64,000 nt of DNA from Litoreibacter arenae DSM 19593 (GTDB lineage Bacteria; Pseudomonadota; Alphaproteobacteria; Rhodobacterales; Rhodobacteraceae): positions 1-64,000 of the forward strand of contig NZ_KE557314.1 in the NCBI RefSeq assembly GCF_000442275.2, read 5' to 3'. Of this stretch, positions 7,311 through 15,929 are shown piece by piece; the stretch's first letter is position 1, and each line of letters begins with the position of its first letter. The notes beneath the pieces were generated by a model. It was given only the letters and a program-made list of their open reading frames with translations. It did not search any database and was not told the DNA's origin. A program made the position numbers and the translations under genes.

Positions 7311-8198
7311 ATGTTGATTGATTTTGTAGGCCTCGGTTCAATGGGTCTTGGCATGGCGACCAGCCTTGTGCGCGCGGGCCACGAAGTGCGTGGATTTGAC
7401 CCCGACACGGCGCGGGTCGATCTGTTCTGCGCACAGGGTGGCGCCGTGTCCGGGGATGATTCCGCGCCAAAGGCCGATGCGATCGTCAGCGCGGTCCTGA
7501 ACGCGGATCAGACGCGCGCGGTCCTCTTCGGCGATCAAGGGCGTGTCGGGCGCTTGCGCAAGGGGGGCGTGATTATCTCATGCGCGACCGTGTCTCCGGA
7601 ATTTGCGGTTGAGATGGAGGCAAAAGCCACGACACAAGAGGTCTTGTATCTCGATGCCCCAATCTCCGGCGGTGCGGTCAAGGCCGCCGAGGGACGCTTG
7701 TCAATCATGGCGTCAGGCAAGCCTGCGGCAATGGCCACTGCCGACCCGTTGCTGGAGGCAATGGCCGAGACTGTTCACCGCTTGGGCGACCACGCCGGAC
7801 CCGGGTCTGCGATGAAAGCAGTGAACCAGCTTTTGGCGGGCGTTCACATCGCCGCCATGGGCGAAGCGCTGGCTTTTGGCGCATCGCAGGGTTTGGACCT
7901 CGCGCAGATGGTTGACGTTGTGTCCGTTTCGGCAGGCACATCATGGATGTTTGAAAACCGCGCCCCCCATGTGGTCGAGGGTGATTATACGCCGCGCTCG
8001 AAAGTGGACATATGGCTGAAAGATCTGGGGATCGTTGGGGATATCGCGGCGTCCTCTGGATTGCCCGTGCCGGTCTGTGCCAATGCCCTGGCCCAATTCC
8101 GCGCCGCATCGGAAGCGGGCCTGGGACAAGAGGATGATGCCGCAATCGCAAAATACTTCGCACGTCAGGGTGGCGTGACCTTACCGGGAGATAGCTGA
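7311..8198 (+). CDS. ltnD: L-threonate dehydrogenase (LtnD-like), beta-hydroxyacid dehydrogenase family
   Basis: NAD-dependent oxidoreductase of about 295 residues. It has the Rossmann motif GLGSMG at the N terminus, the substrate-loop motif DAPISGGAVKAAEG near residue 120, and the catalytic lysine region GPGSAMKAVNQLL near residue 170. LtnD oxidises L-threonate to 2-oxo-tetronate. The family also includes tartronate semialdehyde and 3-hydroxyisobutyrate dehydrogenases. The neighbouring OtnK, DenD and OtnC remnant favour LtnD. Either GTG 7308 or ATG 7311 could start it. GGAG lies 8 bases before the ATG, which I prefer. The stop overlaps the OtnK start by one base. Confidence 0.85.
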   Translation: MLIDFVGLGSMGLGMATSLVRAGHEVRGFDPDTARVDLFCAQGGAVSGDDSAPKADAIVSAVLNADQTRAVLFGDQGRVGRLRKGGVIISCATVSPEFAVEMEAKATTQEVLYLDAPISGGAVKAAEGRLSIMASGKPAAMATADPLLEAMAETVHRLGDHAGPGSAMKAVNQLLAGVHIAAMGEALAFGASQGLDLAQMVDVVSVSAGTSWMFENRAPHVVEGDYTPRSKVDIWLKDLGIVGDIAASSGLPVPVCANALAQFRAASEAGLGQEDDAAIAKYFARQGGVTLPGDS

Positions 8199-9433
8199 TG
8201 TTGCTGGGCTGTATCGGGGACGATTTCACAGGATCAAGTGATCTGGCCAATACACTTGCCAAGGCAGGGATGCGCACCGTGCAATACAGCGGCGTGCCGA
8301 CAGGGGCGGCGGATGCTGACGTGCAGGCGGGTGTTGTCGCGCTCAAATCCCGTTCAATTGCGCCTGCCGATGCGGTGCGCCAGTCTCTTGATGCGTTAAA
8401 ATGGCTTCAGGCCCAAGGATGCGAGCAGATATTCTTCAAATACTGTTCTACCTTCGACAGTACGGCGCAGGGCAATATCGGACCTGTCGCAGATGCGCTT
8501 GCGGATGCGCTGGATGCTCACAAGGTCATTGTCTGCCCCGCCTTTCCGGGGGCAGGACGCTCTGTCTACCAAGGCTATCTGTTTGTCAAAGATGCGTTGC
8601 TGAACGAAAGCGGGATGGAAAACCATCCGCTGACCCCGATGAAAGACGCAAACCTGCGCCGCCTGATGGCTGCGCAAAGCGTCCATTCAGTCGGGCATGT
8701 CCCTGCGGAAGCTGTGTTTGACGGGGCCGAAGCGATTTCAGCCAGGCTCGATGCCGAGCATGCCGCAGGTCACCGCATGATCATTGTCGACGCCCTGCGC
8801 GACAGCGACTTGATGCAGATCGGCGCGGCGGCCAAAGGTTTGCCGTTGATCACCGGGGGCTCTGGCGTGGCGCTGGGTCTACCTGCGAATTTCGGCATCT
8901 CGCCTGCGCAAGTGCCTTGGCAGGCACAAAGCGGCAAAGCGGCGATTCTGTCTGGTTCGTGTTCAACCGCGACACGCGGCCAGATCGCGTATCATGTGGC
9001 GCGTCATCCCAGCCTCAAAATTGATCCTGCCGAGGTGATCAGTGGTTCGCAAACGCCCGAAGTGGTGGCAAAATGGCTAGCTGAAACCGATGGCCTACCT
9101 CTCGCCTACAGCTCTGCTGATCCCGATGAAGTTGCGGCAATTCAAGCGCGGTTCGGAGCAGATACCGCTGCCCATGCGCTTGAAGATTTCTTTGGAAAAA
9201 CGGCGGTTTGTCTGACCGAGCATGGTGTGTCACGCATCCTGACCGCGGGAGGGGAAACCTCCGGCGCTGTGGTCGAAGCGCTCAACATTCGCACACTGGA
9301 GATCGGCCCCGAGATTGACCCCGGCGTGCCCGCATTGCGTGCCAGCGATACGCTTGTCATAGCGCTAAAATCCGGCAATTTCGGCAGCGAGGACTATTTC
9401 GAGAAAGCCGCAAACATGCTTGGTGGGAACTGA
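8198..9433 (+). CDS. otnK: 3-oxo-tetronate 4-kinase (OtnK, four-carbon acid sugar kinase family)
   Basis: ATP-dependent kinase of 411 residues from the former DUF1537 family. The N-terminal GDDFTG motif is at residues 7-12. A further family segment, KYCSTFDSTAQGNIGP, lies near residue 80, and the C-terminal nucleotide-binding part shows TAGGETSGAVVEAL and LKSGNFG. It phosphorylates 3-oxo-tetronate so that OtnC can decarboxylate it to dihydroxyacetone phosphate. The ATG overlaps the ltnD stop in the same operon. The sequence looks intact, unlike the next gene. Confidence 0.92.
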   Translation: MLLGCIGDDFTGSSDLANTLAKAGMRTVQYSGVPTGAADADVQAGVVALKSRSIAPADAVRQSLDALKWLQAQGCEQIFFKYCSTFDSTAQGNIGPVADALADALDAHKVIVCPAFPGAGRSVYQGYLFVKDALLNESGMENHPLTPMKDANLRRLMAAQSVHSVGHVPAEAVFDGAEAISARLDAEHAAGHRMIIVDALRDSDLMQIGAAAKGLPLITGGSGVALGLPANFGISPAQVPWQAQSGKAAILSGSCSTATRGQIAYHVARHPSLKIDPAEVISGSQTPEVVAKWLAETDGLPLAYSSADPDEVAAIQARFGADTAAHALEDFFGKTAVCLTEHGVSRILTAGGETSGAVVEALNIRTLEIGPEIDPGVPALRASDTLVIALKSGNFGSEDYFEKAANMLGGN

Positions 9434-9435
9434 TG

Positions 9436-9937
9436 CGCGATACTGCCCTGCGCGTCTGTCCCACCTTGACGCGACCGGCACGCTGATTGGCGGCGACCCG
9501 CCAACCAATGAAATGCCACAGCATCAGGCCTTTTATGACACGCGCAGCACCGCCGGTGCCGTTGTGCATTTGCACAGTTGTCATTCGGTTGCCCTGTCGA
9601 TGTTGCCCGAAACGGACCCCGACAATTTCCTACCCCGCTGACGCCCTACCGGACTATGAAGCTGGGTCGCATCAAGCTCTTGCAGTTCTTTCTGCCGGGT
9701 GACCCCGCGATGGGGGACGCGGTGCGCGGGCTCGTCGGCAAACGCAGCGCGGTCATGCTGGCCAATCACGGGCCGGTTGTTGCCGGAAAGGATGTGGAAG
9801 CGGCCTGCAATGCGGCGGAAGAGCTTGAGGATACGGCAAGGCTGGCAATGATGCTGCGCGGCATGAACGCACGCGGGCTGACGGAGGATCAGGTGCAGGC
9901 GCTTGTGACCAAGTTCGATGTAGAATGGGATGATTGA
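9436..9937 (+). pseudogene. otnC: 3-oxo-tetronate 4-phosphate decarboxylase (OtnC), 5'-deleted and frameshifted
   Basis: A class II aldolase relic in two frames. The first, to 9641, reads PARLSHLDATGTLIGGDPPTNE then VVHLHSCHSVALSMLPETD and hits a stop after NFLPR. The second continues PLTPYRTMKLGRIKLL, GDPAMGDAVRGL, SAVMLANHGPVVAG and ends at 9937. An indel in the run ctaccccgctg (about 9630-9641) would join them. The normal N-terminal 60 or so residues, including the sugar-acid binding segment, are missing, and homology begins almost at the otnK stop. The family metal-binding HLHS and a later histidine survive. The frameshift could be a sequencing error, but the 5' deletion could not. Confidence 0.85.
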
Positions 9938-11209: not shown

Positions 11210-12182
11210 GTGTGCGAAGCTAATTTCAGGGGGGAGATACCAATCACACAACAACCAAATCTAACGGTACATGACGACATGCGGATCGTCGTGCGTGATG
11301 GGATTACCCTATCGGCGCGCGTCTGGATGCCGGAGGACGCCAAAACAACGCCTTTACCGGCCATTCTTGAAATACTGCCTTACCGCAAACGCGATGGCAC
11401 CAATGCCCGAGATGCCACGACCCACGCGAAGTTCTCACAGCATGGCTATGTTTGTTTGCGGGTTGATCTGCGTGGCTGCGGTGAATCTGAAGGCTTGTTT
11501 GAAGACGAATACTCTGAACAAGAATTAAGCGATATCGAAGACGTCATCGGTTGGATTTCCCAACAGCCGTGGTGTTCAGGCGCGGTCGGGATCATGGGAA
11601 TTTCATGGGGCGGATTTAACGGCCTACAGACTGCCGCTCGCAGACCCCCCGCGTTAAAGGCCGTCATTAGCCTATGTTCTTCGGTTGACCGGTTTGCTGA
11701 CGACATCCACTACAAAGGTGGTTGTCAGCTGATGGAAAACATCGGCTGGGCCGCGACAGCAACCTCTTGGTTTTCCATGCCGCCAGACCCGTTGCTGGTC
11801 GGGGATGACTGGCGCGACATTTGGCTTGAGCGATTGGAAAACACCCCGCCCCTGATCAACAAATGGCAGCAGCATTCCAGCAAGGACAGCTACTGGAAAC
11901 ATGGCTCGGTTAGCGAAGACTTCTCACAGATCGAAGCTGCCGTGCTGGTCATCGGCGGCTGGCATGACGGCTACCGCAATACGGCCGCAAAGTTGCTTAA
12001 GGGCGGTACCAGTGGCCCCGTCAAAGCGATCATGGGTCCTTGGAACCATAAATACCCGCATCTTGCCACGCCAGAGCCACGCATGGATTTCGTATCCGAA
12101 GCGCTGCGGTGGTGGGATCGTTGGTTAAAGGATGCTCCGAATAGCGTCGATGATGACCCTGATTACCGTGTCTATTTGATGG
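11210..12182 (+). pseudogene. CocE/NonD family hydrolase, 5' part, interrupted by an IS1595-type element
   Basis: N-terminal 324 codons of an X-Pro dipeptidyl-peptidase-like (peptidase S15) hydrolase. The nucleophile motif GISWGGFNG lies near residue 132 and the histidine motif GPWNHKYPH near residue 281. The reading stops just after RVYLM because the insertion adds GGYILN and a stop at 12202. Joined across the element to 14854-15929, the frame is continuous and would encode about 682 residues, the usual family length. The true start is uncertain: GTG 11210 has no clear ribosome-binding site, while aggggggag (11227-11235) sits just ahead of a non-canonical ATC at 11243. Confidence 0.9.
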
Positions 12183-12200
12183 GGGGCTATATACTTAACT

Positions 12201-12242
12201 AGCCAAAATTTGCTTGACGACATACCGTATTTTGGCTAACTT
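12201..12242 (+). promoter_or_regulatory. Putative transposase promoter with palindromic operator
   Basis: TTGACG at 12214-12219 and TAACTT at 12237-12242 are 17 bases apart and lie just upstream of the transposase start. The perfect 9-base inverted repeat agccaaaat (12201-12209) / attttggct (12229-12237) brackets the -35 box and touches the -10 box. That layout would suit binding of a repressor or of the transposase. This is inferred from sequence only. Confidence 0.45.
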
Positions 12243-12267
12243 AATCTCAACAAGAGAGATTAGGCCC

Positions 12268-13194
12268 ATGACTGATACACTTAGCACATTCGAGTTTTTC
12301 CAGAAATTCCCAAATGAAGAAGCGGCGCGTCAGTTTTTCGAGAAACGCCGTTGGAATGACGAGCCTGTTTGCGGTCACTGCGGTTCCGTTTCGGTTACTG
12401 AGTGTAAAGATCACAAACCAATGGCCTATCGCTGCAAAGATTGCCGCAAGCATTTCAGCGTTCGCACAGGCACAGTGCTGGCCGAGAGCCGCTTGCCGCT
12501 GATTAAGTGGCTTCTTGCCATCTACATGCTCACAAGCGCACGTAAGGGCATCCCCAGCACTCAGATGGCCCGCGAATTGGGCGTCACACAGAAAACCGCA
12601 TGGTTTCTTGCGCAACGCATCCGTGAAACATGGATGGGCGGAAATAACGACAAGGACAAGATGGACGGTCAAGTTCAAGTCGATGAAACATATGTTGGCG
12701 GCAAGGAAAAGAACAAGCACGCGGATAAGAAGCTTCACGCGGGTCGCGGTGCTGTCGGCAAGACTGCTGTAGTCGGTATGCGCGACGAGAATGGCGTAGT
12801 GCGCGCCACACCTATCAAGCGTACCAATGCGGCCACTCTGGTTGGTTTTGTGCAAGACAACGCCCCAGAGGGCGGCGCAGTGGTTACGGACGAGTTTCGC
12901 GCCTACAACGGCCTTAGCGCACTGGGTTACACCCACAAGACTGTCCGTCACTCCGTTGGCGAGTATGTCCGCGACATGGCCCATACCAACGGCATTGAAA
13001 GCTTCTGGTCCCTGCTTAAGCGTGGCTACATCGGCGTTTACCACTACATGAGCGAAGATCACTTGCACCGCTATGTAAACGAATTTTCATTCCGCCATAA
13101 CACTTCAAAAGTTGGCACAATTAACTTCATCAACATGACGATTGACCGCATGGTTGATAAGCGTCTGACCTACAAGGACCTGACTAATGGCTAA
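12268..13194 (+). CDS. IS1595-family transposase (ISXO2-like DDE domain)
   Basis: Transposase of 308 residues. The N-terminal zinc ribbon has CGHCGS and CKDCRKHF. A helix-turn-helix-like part reads STQMARELGVTQKTAWFLAQRIR. The ISXO2-like catalytic core has VQVDETYVGG, VVTDEFRAY and the final NGIESFWSLLKRGY block. All expected acidic residues are present, so it looks active. The start at 12268 follows caagagagattaggccc, and the longer frame upstream has no ribosome-binding site. Its stop overlaps the start of the P63C gene by 8 bases, pointing to coupled translation of a passenger gene. Confidence 0.95.
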   Translation: MTDTLSTFEFFQKFPNEEAARQFFEKRRWNDEPVCGHCGSVSVTECKDHKPMAYRCKDCRKHFSVRTGTVLAESRLPLIKWLLAIYMLTSARKGIPSTQMARELGVTQKTAWFLAQRIRETWMGGNNDKDKMDGQVQVDETYVGGKEKNKHADKKLHAGRGAVGKTAVVGMRDENGVVRATPIKRTNAATLVGFVQDNAPEGGAVVTDEFRAYNGLSALGYTHKTVRHSVGEYVRDMAHTNGIESFWSLLKRGYIGVYHYMSEDHLHRYVNEFSFRHNTSKVGTINFINMTIDRMVDKRLTYKDLTNG

Positions 13195-14206
13195 AAAGCC
13201 CGATATTATTGAGCCGATTGAGGCTAATTTTGATGATGTTGTCGATTCTATTCTGGCTAGTGAAGCGCCTTCGGCGCCTTTGCAGACTACGGCCATGCCA
13301 GGATTTGAAAAGCCAGATGAAATCCCTGTAGCGATAGCCTCAGGACCGCTGTCTATTGGTGATGTGGAAATAGACTGTGCAGTACTTGCAGATGAAACCA
13401 GACTTCTTTCTGACCGAAGCGTAACCAAATCAATGGGTGGCAAGCGTGGCGGGTCACATTGGCTTAGGATGAAAGAGGAAGGCGCCATAGCCTTGCCTCC
13501 TTATATCTCAGCGGCAAATCTTCGGCCATTCATCCCGCAGGACCTAATCTACATTCTTTCTAATCCCGTTCCGTACCGCACTAAAAAGTCAGGCGCCAAG
13601 GCAAATGGGTTGCTGGCTACGGCATTCCCTAGGGTGTTACGGGTCTGGGAAAAAGCTTATGAGGCTGGCGCCTTAAAGCCCCAGCAAGAGCATATCGCCC
13701 TTCAAGCGATATCACTTCTAAAAGGCTTTGATGAAATCGCCATTATGGCATTGGTGGATGAAGCCACCGGATATCAAGAAATTAGACGAAAAGACGAACT
13801 GCAAAAGGTTCTTAGCGCTTACATTCTTCCAGAACACCAGCCGTATCTTTCTAGTGTTCCCAAAGAGTTCACAGATGAATTATATCGCGTCTACGGATGG
13901 GAAAGACGGGCAGACAATAGGGGACCGCGATACGCGGGTAAACTATTGCGAAAGCTCATATATGAGCAATTGCCAGAACCTGTTTTGCCAGAGCTAGATG
14001 AAGTCAACCCGACGAACGAAAAGTATCAACGGAAGCGTAAACATTTTCAGAGTCTGACACCGGAGGTTGGCGTCAGCCATTTCAAAACCCAAATGGCGGG
14101 CGTCATGGCGCTTCTTCGTGCCTCCCCATCGAACAACCCTAAAGCGTTTATGAGTCTCTTTAAGCGTGCATACGGCGATCAATATGAATTGGACCTTGGC
14201 GAGTAG
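13187..14206 (+). CDS. P63C-domain-containing protein, IS passenger
   Basis: Passenger protein of 339 residues. From about residue 65 onward it follows the P63C family plan: a DETRLLSDRSVTKSMG segment, LPPYISAANLRPFI, QEHIALQAISLLKGFDEIAI then MALVDEATGYQEIRR near residue 190, and a C-terminal GPRYAGKLLRKLIYEQLP followed by VGVSHFKTQMAGVMALLRAS. The first 60 residues are acidic and low in complexity. The function of P63C proteins is not established; they occur on phages and mobile elements. It overlaps the transposase gene by 8 bases and precedes a PemK-like gene by 39 bases, so the three are probably one transcript. Confidence 0.8.
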   Translation: MAKKPDIIEPIEANFDDVVDSILASEAPSAPLQTTAMPGFEKPDEIPVAIASGPLSIGDVEIDCAVLADETRLLSDRSVTKSMGGKRGGSHWLRMKEEGAIALPPYISAANLRPFIPQDLIYILSNPVPYRTKKSGAKANGLLATAFPRVLRVWEKAYEAGALKPQQEHIALQAISLLKGFDEIAIMALVDEATGYQEIRRKDELQKVLSAYILPEHQPYLSSVPKEFTDELYRVYGWERRADNRGPRYAGKLLRKLIYEQLPEPVLPELDEVNPTNEKYQRKRKHFQSLTPEVGVSHFKTQMAGVMALLRASPSNNPKAFMSLFKRAYGDQYELDLGE

Positions 14207-14245
14207 TAGGCGCCAGTCATGTCGTAAAAAGAAACGAGCAGAAAA

Positions 14246-14668
14246 TTGGCTATTGAGTACCACCCCCCACGCGGGGCCATTGTTTGTGCGAACTTCGACC
14301 AAGGCTTCAAAGTTCCCGAAATGGTGAAGCGCAGGTTATGTGTTGTGATATCCCCGCCCATTGAGGCGAGGTTCGGCCTTTGCACAGTTGTTCCCCTTAG
14401 TCGCTCGGACCCAGAAGCCGTGCAACCCTATCACTATCAATTCGAGATACCCTTTCAGATGCCCCCGAACTGGGGCAACGGGATGCGTTGGGCCAAGTGT
14501 GATATGGTGTGCGCGGTAGGCTTTCATAGGCTTGATTTGTTGCGTTTAGGCAAAAACGCGCAAGGGGTGCGACAATATCAACTAAACACCTTATCCAGCA
14601 TACATTTACGGCATATTAGTAACGGAGTGTTAGCCAGTCTTGGACTTCCCGCTTTGACACAACCATAG
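14246..14668 (+). CDS. PemK/MazF-like protein, IS passenger
   Basis: A 140-residue protein resembling the PemK/MazF endoribonuclease toxin fold. It has an early PRGAIVCANFDQGF strand-turn, then KRRLCVVISPP, LCTVVPLSRSDP near residue 50 and WAKCDMVCAVGFHRLDLLRL near residue 90. This matches the toxin pattern of an RP.VV.S core followed by VVPLS and the later CDQ/CDM-RLD strand. It starts with TTG and has only a weak ribosome-binding site (gaaacgag). No partner antitoxin gene of normal type is visible next to it; the upstream P63C gene occupies that place. Toxin activity is not shown. Confidence 0.65.
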   Translation: MAIEYHPPRGAIVCANFDQGFKVPEMVKRRLCVVISPPIEARFGLCTVVPLSRSDPEAVQPYHYQFEIPFQMPPNWGNGMRWAKCDMVCAVGFHRLDLLRLGKNAQGVRQYQLNTLSSIHLRHISNGVLASLGLPALTQP

Positions 14669-14776
14669 TGAGTTCCTATATATAACGTGTGGCGGCACTG
14701 CTTCGGCATCCGCATTAAGACCCTACCAAGGGCCACTGGCCGACGAAGCGAAAGCAAGTTTCAGGTCAGTGCTGTG

Positions 14777-14815
14777 AGGCCCCATCGGCGCAAGCCTTTG
14801 GGGCTTTTGCTTTTT
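14777..14815 (+). terminator. Rho-independent terminator at the end of the IS1595-type element
   Basis: GCCCCA (14779-14784) pairs with TGGGGC (14799-14804), followed by ttttgcttttt. It ends the passenger transcription unit and would also stop read-through from the upstream esterase/hydrolase genes into the ABC transporter genes. Confidence 0.8.
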
Positions 14816-14853
14816 CTGGTCGGCTAGTTAGGTATATAGGCCCCATTTGATGG

Positions 14854-15929
14854 ATGGGGTGCCGCCAAAGACCAGCTACGTCACAAGGCCGGGCCGATGG
14901 GTCGGATTGCCAAAATGGCCGGCGCCCGAAATTCAGAGCCAATCCCTGCCCCTTGGCAACGGCACGCTTGGGCAGGATGTGATGGCAAGCCCTGTCGCAG
15001 TAAAATCGAACGTGAGCTGCGGGCAAGGGTTTGGCGAATACTTCCCTTTCGGCTTTGGCCCGGGCGAGTTGCCGGATGACCAACGCGCAGATGACGCCCT
15101 GTCAGCGTGTTTCGATACGCAAGCCCTGAGCGAAGCAACACCGCTGATTGGTGCACCCCGCATCAAACTGACGGTCTCGTCGCGGACACCCTACGCACAA
15201 TTGGCCGCTCGTTTATGTGATGTCGCGCCAGACGGGGCGTCGACGCTAATCTCCATTGGCCTTCTTAACCTCCAGTTCCGCGAGGGGTTCGAGACACCCA
15301 AGGCGCTGGTCCCGGATCAGGACTACGCGATCACGCTTGATCTGGATCAGGCGGCGTATGTTGTACCGAAAGGACACCGCCTGCGGTTGTCCATTTCGCC
15401 GTCCTACTGGCCGTTTATCTGGCCAGAACGTGGAGAAACAACGCTGAAAATCTCGCAAGGAACGCTGGAGTTACCAGTGTTTCATGACACCGGCGGATTG
15501 GAATGGCCTTGCCCGCCGTTGACCCAAAGCGACGACCCGATCACCACCGTCACGCGTTCCGGACTGGAAGACAAACGTACACTTATCGAAGACGGTCAGC
15601 TAAAACTGGTTATCCATGCGGACCATGGCGAAGTAGAGCACCCCGACCACAGCTTGCGTACCTCCAGTGAAATTCGTGAAACCTGGTCAATAAATCAATC
15701 CGACATTAGCAAAGCCAGCGCCCACATCGTCTGGAACCGGTCAGTGGCGCGCGGCGACTTTTTTGCATCGACAGAGATTGTTACCCAGATGCACAGTGAC
15801 AGTGACACATATTTCGTTAGTTTGAATATTCGGGCACATGATGCCGAGACCTGTGTGTTCGAACGACAATATCAAGATAGCTTTAGGCGCGATCTAACGC
15901 TCAAAGGCGAACCGACCAACCAAACTTGA
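14854..15929 (+). pseudogene. CocE/NonD family hydrolase, 3' part
   Basis: This is the C-terminal half (about 358 codons) of the interrupted hydrolase. The joined reading is RVYLM-DGVPPKTSYVTRPG, with no base lost beyond the duplicated target. It holds the jelly-roll X-Pro dipeptidyl-peptidase C-terminal domain, with features such as LTVSSRTPYAQLAARLCDV, LLNLQFREGF and GHRLRLSISPSYWPFIWP. It is separated from its nucleophile and histidine, so it cannot act alone. It ends 13 bases before the substrate-binding protein gene, so the intact gene was part of the ABC transporter operon. Confidence 0.9.

Follow-up and report, generated by a model that had tools for sequence, protein, structure and literature searches.

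A conserved structured RNA beside a PemK/MazF-like toxin gene is a candidate antitoxin carried by an IS1595-type transposon

What restrains a PemK/MazF-like toxin whose gene has no recognisable antitoxin gene beside it? The question is raised by a locus of Litoreibacter arenae DSM 19593 (assembly GCF_000442275.2, contig NZ_KE557314.1, positions 1-64,000 of the forward strand; this stretch of 64,000 nucleotides (nt) is called the window below), where a complete IS1595-type transposon of 2,663 bp (12182-14844, sequence read directly) carries a transposase gene, a P63C gene and a PemK/MazF-like toxin gene. Here, we report that a conserved structured RNA lies directly 3' of the toxin gene, and we consider it likely that the MazF-fold toxin and this single folded RNA of about 86 nt make up a type III-like addiction module that the transposon carries. 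With slightly less assurance, we think that the pair represents an undescribed and widespread toxin-antitoxin class, in which a PemK/MazF-fold ribonuclease (RNase) would be held by a single-copy, non-repetitive folded RNA that has its own promoter and may lie before or after the toxin gene, and which would serve as an addiction cassette for transposons of the IS1595 and IS1 types, for plasmids and for phages. The initial annotation of this DNA had read the stretch 3' of the PemK gene as a terminator; a terminator is indeed present, and the conserved structured RNA in front of it had been overlooked.

The RNA is recognised by comparison. In a viral contig with a second copy of the three genes (L062; loci outside the window carry L numbers), the stretch 3' of PemK is conserved relative to the window, and a 21-base motif from that stretch gave four matches when viral contigs were scanned (L062, L064, L063 and L066). 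L064 is a PemK-RNA pair with no transposase, and L063 (about 14211-14565) and L066 are short loci holding transposon end(s) and the RNA with only scraps of P63C/PemK; both ends are present in L063 and only one was found in L066. When ten PemK genes from plasmids and viral contigs were followed downstream, most showed a similar folded stretch, L041 being doubtful. With the PemK alignment A1 as query, 341 relatives were found among genome contigs and 96 among viral contigs, and the best 80 of each were analysed (160 loci). A motif pattern fitted 59 of the 160, and the genome loci among these less nine, plus the window, L062 and L064, gave the 29 sequences of alignment A2, which was made with MAFFT from sequence alone and from which the structure was drawn by hand. 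Three elements make up the fold: a hairpin at the 5' end, another that follows a conserved AAG[AU]CC, and a long stem capped by a hairpin with the loop GANNNCAA. In A2, 96.6% of the cells pair and 18 of the 22 pairs show changes on both sides; the covariation score is 0.610, vs 0.231 when shuffled and at most 0.132 when slid, and on this sequence-only alignment a chance fold is rejected. A wider alignment of 101 sequences scored 0.815 vs 0.215, a figure to be taken with caution as that alignment was fitted to the model. A known RNA family was rejected as well, Rfam giving no match over the RNA in the window (11900-15200, E ≤ 10), in 9 loci (E ≤ 1) or in 9 further loci (E ≤ 0.1).

The RNA accompanies the toxin gene across hosts, elements and both gene orders. 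By their record titles, the best 80 genome contigs are mostly from Alphaproteobacteria, with some gamma-, beta- and deltaproteobacterial ones, Planctomycetaceae and Chlorobiaceae. Two covariance models were used: R1, trained on 26 of the 80 genome toxin loci, and R2, trained on most loci (100 sources; those left out include loci without a match, near-duplicates and also L093, L105, L107, L114 and L140). An adjacent same-strand R1 match is present at 76 of the 80 genome toxin loci (E ≤ 1) and an adjacent R2 match at 77 (E ≤ 0.012); R2 matches 75 of the 80 viral toxin loci at E ≤ 0.5, of which 72 also pass E ≤ 0.05, and none of the 19 P63C control loci has an RNA match at E ≤ 1. In six viral loci (L202, L211, L215, L216, L221 and L222) the RNA is upstream of the toxin gene, with a terminator between the two in the five that were read (not L216). 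When R1 was used as bait on 394 genomes of the family, 13 matched; the toxin adjoins the best 9, and the four weakest (L236-L239, 27.9-29.9 bits) have no toxin within 1.5 kb. R2 as bait matched 8 of 398 genomes of the phylum, with the toxin adjoining 6. L242 has an intact RNA and, seemingly, the final codons of the toxin gene; L245 has the RNA with no toxin within 1.5 kb. There are thus loci with the RNA and no toxin gene (L063, L066, L242 and L245), as an antitoxin would permit, and in the first three, judging the remnants by eye, the toxin was lost and the RNA kept. RNA matches were also found in 9 of 13 plasmid PemK records (L032, L033, L034, L035, L036, L040, L249, L250 and L252) and in one of two Vibrio phage records, the other of which ends at the toxin gene. 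Finally, the divergence of the RNA is correlated with that of the toxin across 97 loci (Mantel r 0.60, 0 of 999 permutations). Three single loci may be recorded here. A further diverged PemK-RNA pair lies about 700 bp before the transposon of L062 (1799-2322); the Vibrio cyclitrophicus phage record L247 (Vinavirales) has a LexA-like gene, PemK and the RNA; and in L098 (4531-4587) the RNA abuts a tmRNA-like (transfer-messenger RNA) fragment, sub-threshold in Rfam, the two sharing the final 3 bases of the RNA, as though a tmRNA gene had been the insertion site of a toxin-RNA island.

The RNA likely has its own promoter, judging from sequence conservation. In 65 of the 77 genome loci, TTGAC stands 28-50 nt ahead of the RNA, vs 2.2% of 15,400 random positions, and in 53 of the 77 it has a matching -10 element, vs 0.8% of random positions. 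In several loci (e.g. L072, L079, L137, L183 and L187) TTGAC is found 3' of the toxin stop codon, so coding does not explain its conservation.

On the protein side, the initial annotation of a PemK/MazF-like gene on the same strand holds, and PF02452 is found in all 76 scanned members of the toxin family. The AlphaFold model of the toxin (predicted local distance difference test, pLDDT, 94.1) has the MazF fold, matching MazF chains with Z up to 14.3 (root-mean-square deviation, rmsd, 2.4 over 114 residues) and Kid with Z 11.3; MazF E24A mutants are named among the structural matches. Residues E25 and R30, both conserved, line up with E. coli MazF E24 and R29, which we take to have a catalytic role, so the active site is probably intact in the predicted structure. 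No ToxN chain is among the structural matches listed, which does not exclude a likeness to ToxN. PADLOC models gave no match for the three element proteins at E ≤ 0.1, and the best PHROGs match of the toxin is phrog_15698 (unknown function), followed by phrog_1936, a MazF-like growth inhibitor (1.1e-05). The 133 open reading frames (ORFs) 5' of the toxin fall into 96 clusters, the largest with 11, indicating no conserved upstream protein partner; the clustering covered ORFs upstream of the toxin only.

Because the upstream neighbours include no conserved protein, the RNA and the toxin diverge in parallel, the RNA occurs alone at some loci and the antisense signal (see below) is weak, we propose that the folded RNA inhibits the RNase. 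Transcription of the RNA would start at a promoter of its own, placed at the 3' end of the toxin gene, and would stop at its own terminator; once folded, the RNA would most likely bind the toxin and block the active site, as ToxI does for ToxN. If the element were lost or silenced, the presumably short-lived RNA would vanish first and the toxin would be freed, and this putative toxicity would favour carriers of the element, and also carriers of plasmids and phages bearing the same module.

Several observations weigh against inhibition by the RNA. The described type III antitoxins differ from this RNA, which occurs as a single copy and usually downstream. Single-sequence folding of the window RNA is unexceptional (z -1.34 for 14686-14820 and -0.93 for 14690-14780, but -3.18 for 14690-14830). 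A strict promoter scan omits the window promoter and finds fewer promoter-like sites than in shuffles; the window promoter goes unlisted because the scan demands T as the last base of the second hexamer. An adjacent R2 match at E ≤ 0.5 is absent from 8 of the 160 toxin loci (L073, L114, L123, L208, L210, L212, L213 and L226), and L178, L199 and L224 pass only at E 0.11-0.46. In L073 and L114 the contig ends within 60 nt of the toxin gene, L114 having only a distant minus-strand match; in L123 an RNA variant is visible by eye; and four of the five unmatched viral loci are near-identical to L205, L209 and L214, which themselves match at E 0.021. Among the plasmid records, an R2 match (E ≤ 1) is absent from 4 of 13: the toxin gene is broken in L253, an RNA variant is visible by eye in L251, and none is clear by eye in L041 and L246. 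Toxin genes with no detectable RNA therefore do exist among distant members, and each of the genes concerned runs into a contig end, scores at the margin of the model, is broken or is distant.

The alternative that survives best, which we nevertheless consider unlikely, is that the PemK-like nuclease uses the RNA as substrate, activator or guide, the two forming a two-part effector such as an RNA-switched phage-defence ribonuclease. The module sits on many viral contigs, and the tight association in both orders and the conserved unpaired AAG[AU]CC and GANNNCAA would suit any ribonucleoprotein. However, MazF-fold toxins are active on their own, the own promoter favours an excess of RNA, and RNA was kept after toxin loss in L063, L066 and L242, for which an activator offers less reason.

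It is distinctly less probable that the RNA base-pairs with the toxin mRNA in a type I-like antisense control. In its favour, a separate small RNA with its own likely promoter adjoins the toxin gene, and over 66 loci start regions form slightly better duplexes with their own RNA than in mismatched pairings (mean residual -1.44 kcal/mol, z -3.0). The effect is small, with a median rank of 26 of 66 for the own RNA, as shared base composition could yield, and on these 66 loci antisense action was rejected, the signal being only weak and unspecific. The strong helix covariation also fits a folded RNA rather than an antisense RNA, and the RNA occurs both upstream and downstream of the toxin.

A little more improbable again is an ordinary type II system, in which the upstream protein (P63C here) would be the antitoxin and the RNA a 3' untranslated structure. 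Pfam and most plasmid records do label the toxin as type II, and P63C is the immediate 5' neighbour of the toxin in the window and five more IS1595 loci, and sits one gene further away in L108 and L115. On the other hand, P63C elements without PemK are common: six relatives with an IS1595 transposase directly 5' of P63C (L043, L044, L046, L049, L051 and L059; L059 came from a phylum-level search, not from the family set) are of this kind, and of 80 viral-contig P63C loci, 79 lack a PemK homologue within 3 kb. An upstream protein antitoxin was rejected on the varying upstream neighbours given above, and the RNA, with its own likely promoter, can itself lie upstream of the toxin. The notion that the RNA belongs to the transposon rather than to the toxin, in transposition control or as an end structure, is the least credible and is largely refuted: the RNA does lie just inside the right end here and is kept with the ends in the deletion derivatives L063 and L066, but the six toxin-free elements just named have no RNA, and an IS1595-like transposase is found at only 5 of the 160 toxin loci, on which grounds we rejected it.

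How, then, does inhibition by a folded RNA compare with known systems? In the available part of PMC5086642, type III systems are defined by tandem repeats upstream of the toxin gene with a terminator between. Like ToxIN, TenpIN, CptIN and AbiQ, the window system has a Kid/MazF-fold ribonuclease beside a structured RNA, and the six viral loci with the upstream RNA show the textbook RNA-toxin order with a single-copy RNA. Unlike them, the window-type RNA is a single unit rather than a tandem array and is usually downstream with its own likely promoter, and the toxin is in PF02452. Each matched toxin has one R2 match; two RNA copies at one locus are seen in L082 (477-567 and 897-985) and L179 (3426-3508 and 4446-4528), starting 420 and 1,020 nt apart, with no tandem array. 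In the window and in most loci the RNA does not precede the toxin. As both the repeats and the order differ, the window system is not to be filed as type III; it probably works like type III. In AbiF-RCd22 from a Clostridioides difficile prophage, a non-coding RNA neutralises a phage-borne toxin by direct binding, and this sets a precedent for RNA antitoxins beyond the ToxN superfamily; unlike in our system, AbiF is in the Abi_2/AbiD/F family and its RNA, which lies before the gene, contains two repeated motifs (PMC12373285, available part). With MazEF and PemIK of type II, the window system shares the toxin fold, the catalytic positions and PF02452; it differs in having no conserved upstream antitoxin gene, and a conserved RNA instead. 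A survey of structured RNAs in the human microbiome describes RNAs before ToxN, and its main text, in the part available, has no PemK or MazF (PMC8040213). In the open-licence PMC literature, to the extent that its text was read (subscription papers and preprints being outside this scope), we found no IS1595-P63C element and no PemK with such an RNA. A conserved RNA beside a PemK/MazF-like toxin is apparently undescribed.

If inhibition by the RNA is true, many 'orphan' PemK/MazF toxins in databases would be RNA-controlled, and for PemK/MazF genes without a recognisable antitoxin it offers a testable answer, namely an RNA partner that is invisible to gene callers. The model of the RNA can be run against any genome. 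Such modules would connect MazF-type toxins to repeat-free RNA antitoxins, with both gene orders in one family, and would show small transposons bearing their own addiction module.

The transposon itself was described in the initial annotation as an IS1595 element precisely inserted in a hydrolase gene, with inverted ends starting GGGG and a zinc-ribbon ISXO2-like transposase, and all of this is borne out (Table 1). The 9-base target duplication with an element start at 12183 had to be corrected: the duplication is 8 bp (ATTTGATG) and the element starts one base earlier, because the ninth base (G) already belongs to the element as its first base, the ends agreeing at 21 of 23 positions from there. 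Joining the flanks with one target copy restores, as had been predicted, an open hydrolase frame, of 683 codons with the sole stop at the end (682 residues). An empty-site comparison that had been set beforehand agrees: a hydrolase homologue from the same genus, 39% identical, aligns across the predicted join with no gap there. The genome of the strain has one copy of the element and one IS1595 transposase, the element's own. With DDE_Tnp_IS1595 and zinc ribbon domains, GGGG-starting ends and an 8-bp duplication, the element is like others of the IS1595 family (compare ISApl4 in the available part of PMC12561309); the window group is unlike them in having an overlapping second gene with a conserved leader and an exchangeable body, followed by a cargo slot. 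Exact 8-bp duplications flank eleven elements (the window, L043, L044, L046, L049, L051, L059, L071, L150, L377 and L378), that of L378 being merely a run of A. No matching duplication was found around L067, L070, L148 and L063, and one end or flank is absent in L062, L066, L069 and L050.

Passenger genes are known from IS1595 elements, and the pairing of passengers with an 8-base transposase overlap had been taken as unusual. The second gene and the overlap are in fact constant, the 8-nt overlap being present in all 14 IS1595 elements read (the window, eleven others, L350 and L352; the transposase of L044 has an internal stop); what does vary is the cargo, PemK being one among several. A P63C gene overlapping the transposase by 8 nt is confirmed in the window, and a P63C protein search of the 394 family genomes matched 12 genomes, that of the window included. 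It had been held that transposase copies with the same ends and no passengers would speak against the element as described. With the window transposase as bait, 41 of 275 family genomes have a match at E ≤ 1e-30, and 30 loci were examined, up to 1.5 kb on each side. Seven transposases at least 75% identical have downstream DNA, the window's included, and all seven have a second gene, P63C in five and another body in two (L350 and L352); within the DNA examined, only the window element has PemK. L354 and L359 are cut by contig ends, and the remaining 21 loci (L355-L358 and L360-L376, identity ≤ 51%) have no P63C in the flanking DNA examined, which spans up to 1.5 kb in either direction.

The second gene consists of a conserved leader peptide and a body that is usually P63C and is replaceable. 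The first ~45 residues of the P63C protein are common to these elements, the rest resembling P63C proteins of viral contigs; since the latter match mostly from about residue 45 onward, the leader looks like the transposon's own part, and from its sequence we infer that it ties the second gene to the transposase. In L350 and L352 the same type of leader (M-D-KKD-IEPID-FDEVV) is followed by a different body of ~300 residues with no Pfam family above the cut-off, an apparent case of domain swapping behind the transposase-overlapping leader. If so, the second protein of these transposons would be modular, with a leader peptide that links it to the transposase. The predicted P63C structure (pLDDT 83.3) has a best PDB match of E 0.49 and weak matches to DdrC (Z 6.2, rmsd 15.0 over 184 residues) and its N-terminal domain (Z 5.6, rmsd 4.2 over 94); a DNA-binding phage regulator would be a guess from this model. 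The cargo slot 3' of the second gene holds PemK and the RNA in the window, L062, L067, L069, L071 and L150, all in the order transposase-P63C-PemK, and a DUF3800 protein in their place in L051 and L059. Other contents are a 243-residue frame without identification (L378), opposite-strand frames (L046) or nothing obvious (L043, L044 and L049). L070 and L148 keep the ends, PemK and the RNA, and no transposase was found there. On the Citrobacter plasmid L250, a DUF3800 gene adjoins PemK.

The same genes also occur in a transposon of another type. L115 (1694-4607) is a complete IS1-like transposon with inverted ends, an 8-bp duplication (CAGATTAT) and the order P63C-transposase-PemK-RNA; its transposase is of the IS1 type (PF03400, 43.7 bits, cut-off 24.1; NF033558, 72.5 bits, below the cut-off of 100). 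It is thus like the window element in having P63C, transposase, PemK and RNA between inverted ends, and in the length of the duplication, and unlike it in transposase type, gene order and ends. The trio of P63C, PemK and RNA is also present in L108, known without element ends.

Table 1. Positions of the features of the transposon, its insertion site and its toxin-RNA pair (window coordinates unless a locus is named)
Feature	Position	Strand	Description	Basis
Interrupted hydrolase gene, 5' part	11210-12181	+	longest frame	
Left target duplication copy	12174-12181		ATTTGATG, 8 bp	read directly
Left terminal inverted repeat	12182-12204	+	23 bp, 21/23 matching right end	
IS1595-family transposase	12268-13194	+	308 residues	PF12762 3.9e-42, PF12760 1.2e-09; NF033547 199.2 bits (cut-off 75)
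Overlap of transposase stop and second-gene start	13187-13194	+	8 nt, ATGGCTAA	
P63C-domain protein	13187-14206	+	339 residues	PF10546 6.4e-19
PemK/MazF-like toxin	14246-14668	+	140 residues, TTG start	PF02452 3.5e-10
Putative sigma-70 promoter of the RNA	14654-14682	+	TTGACA-17 nt-TATATA	read directly
Structured RNA core, candidate RNA antitoxin	14689-14775	+	~86 nt	covariance models R1, R2
Intrinsic terminator of the RNA	14777-14816	+	hairpin and T-rich tail	scan lists 14792-14806
Right terminal inverted repeat	14822-14844	-		
Right target duplication copy	14845-14852		ATTTGATG, 8 bp	read directly
Interrupted hydrolase gene, 3' part	14853-15929	+		
Second gene with another body	L350 459-1502; L352 462-1502	-		

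Elsewhere in the window, an aldolase-like frame (identified by eye) at 9420-9937 is split over 9420-9641 and 9578-9937, possibly a frameshifted gene; it sits just after a sugar-acid kinase-like gene (8198-9433).

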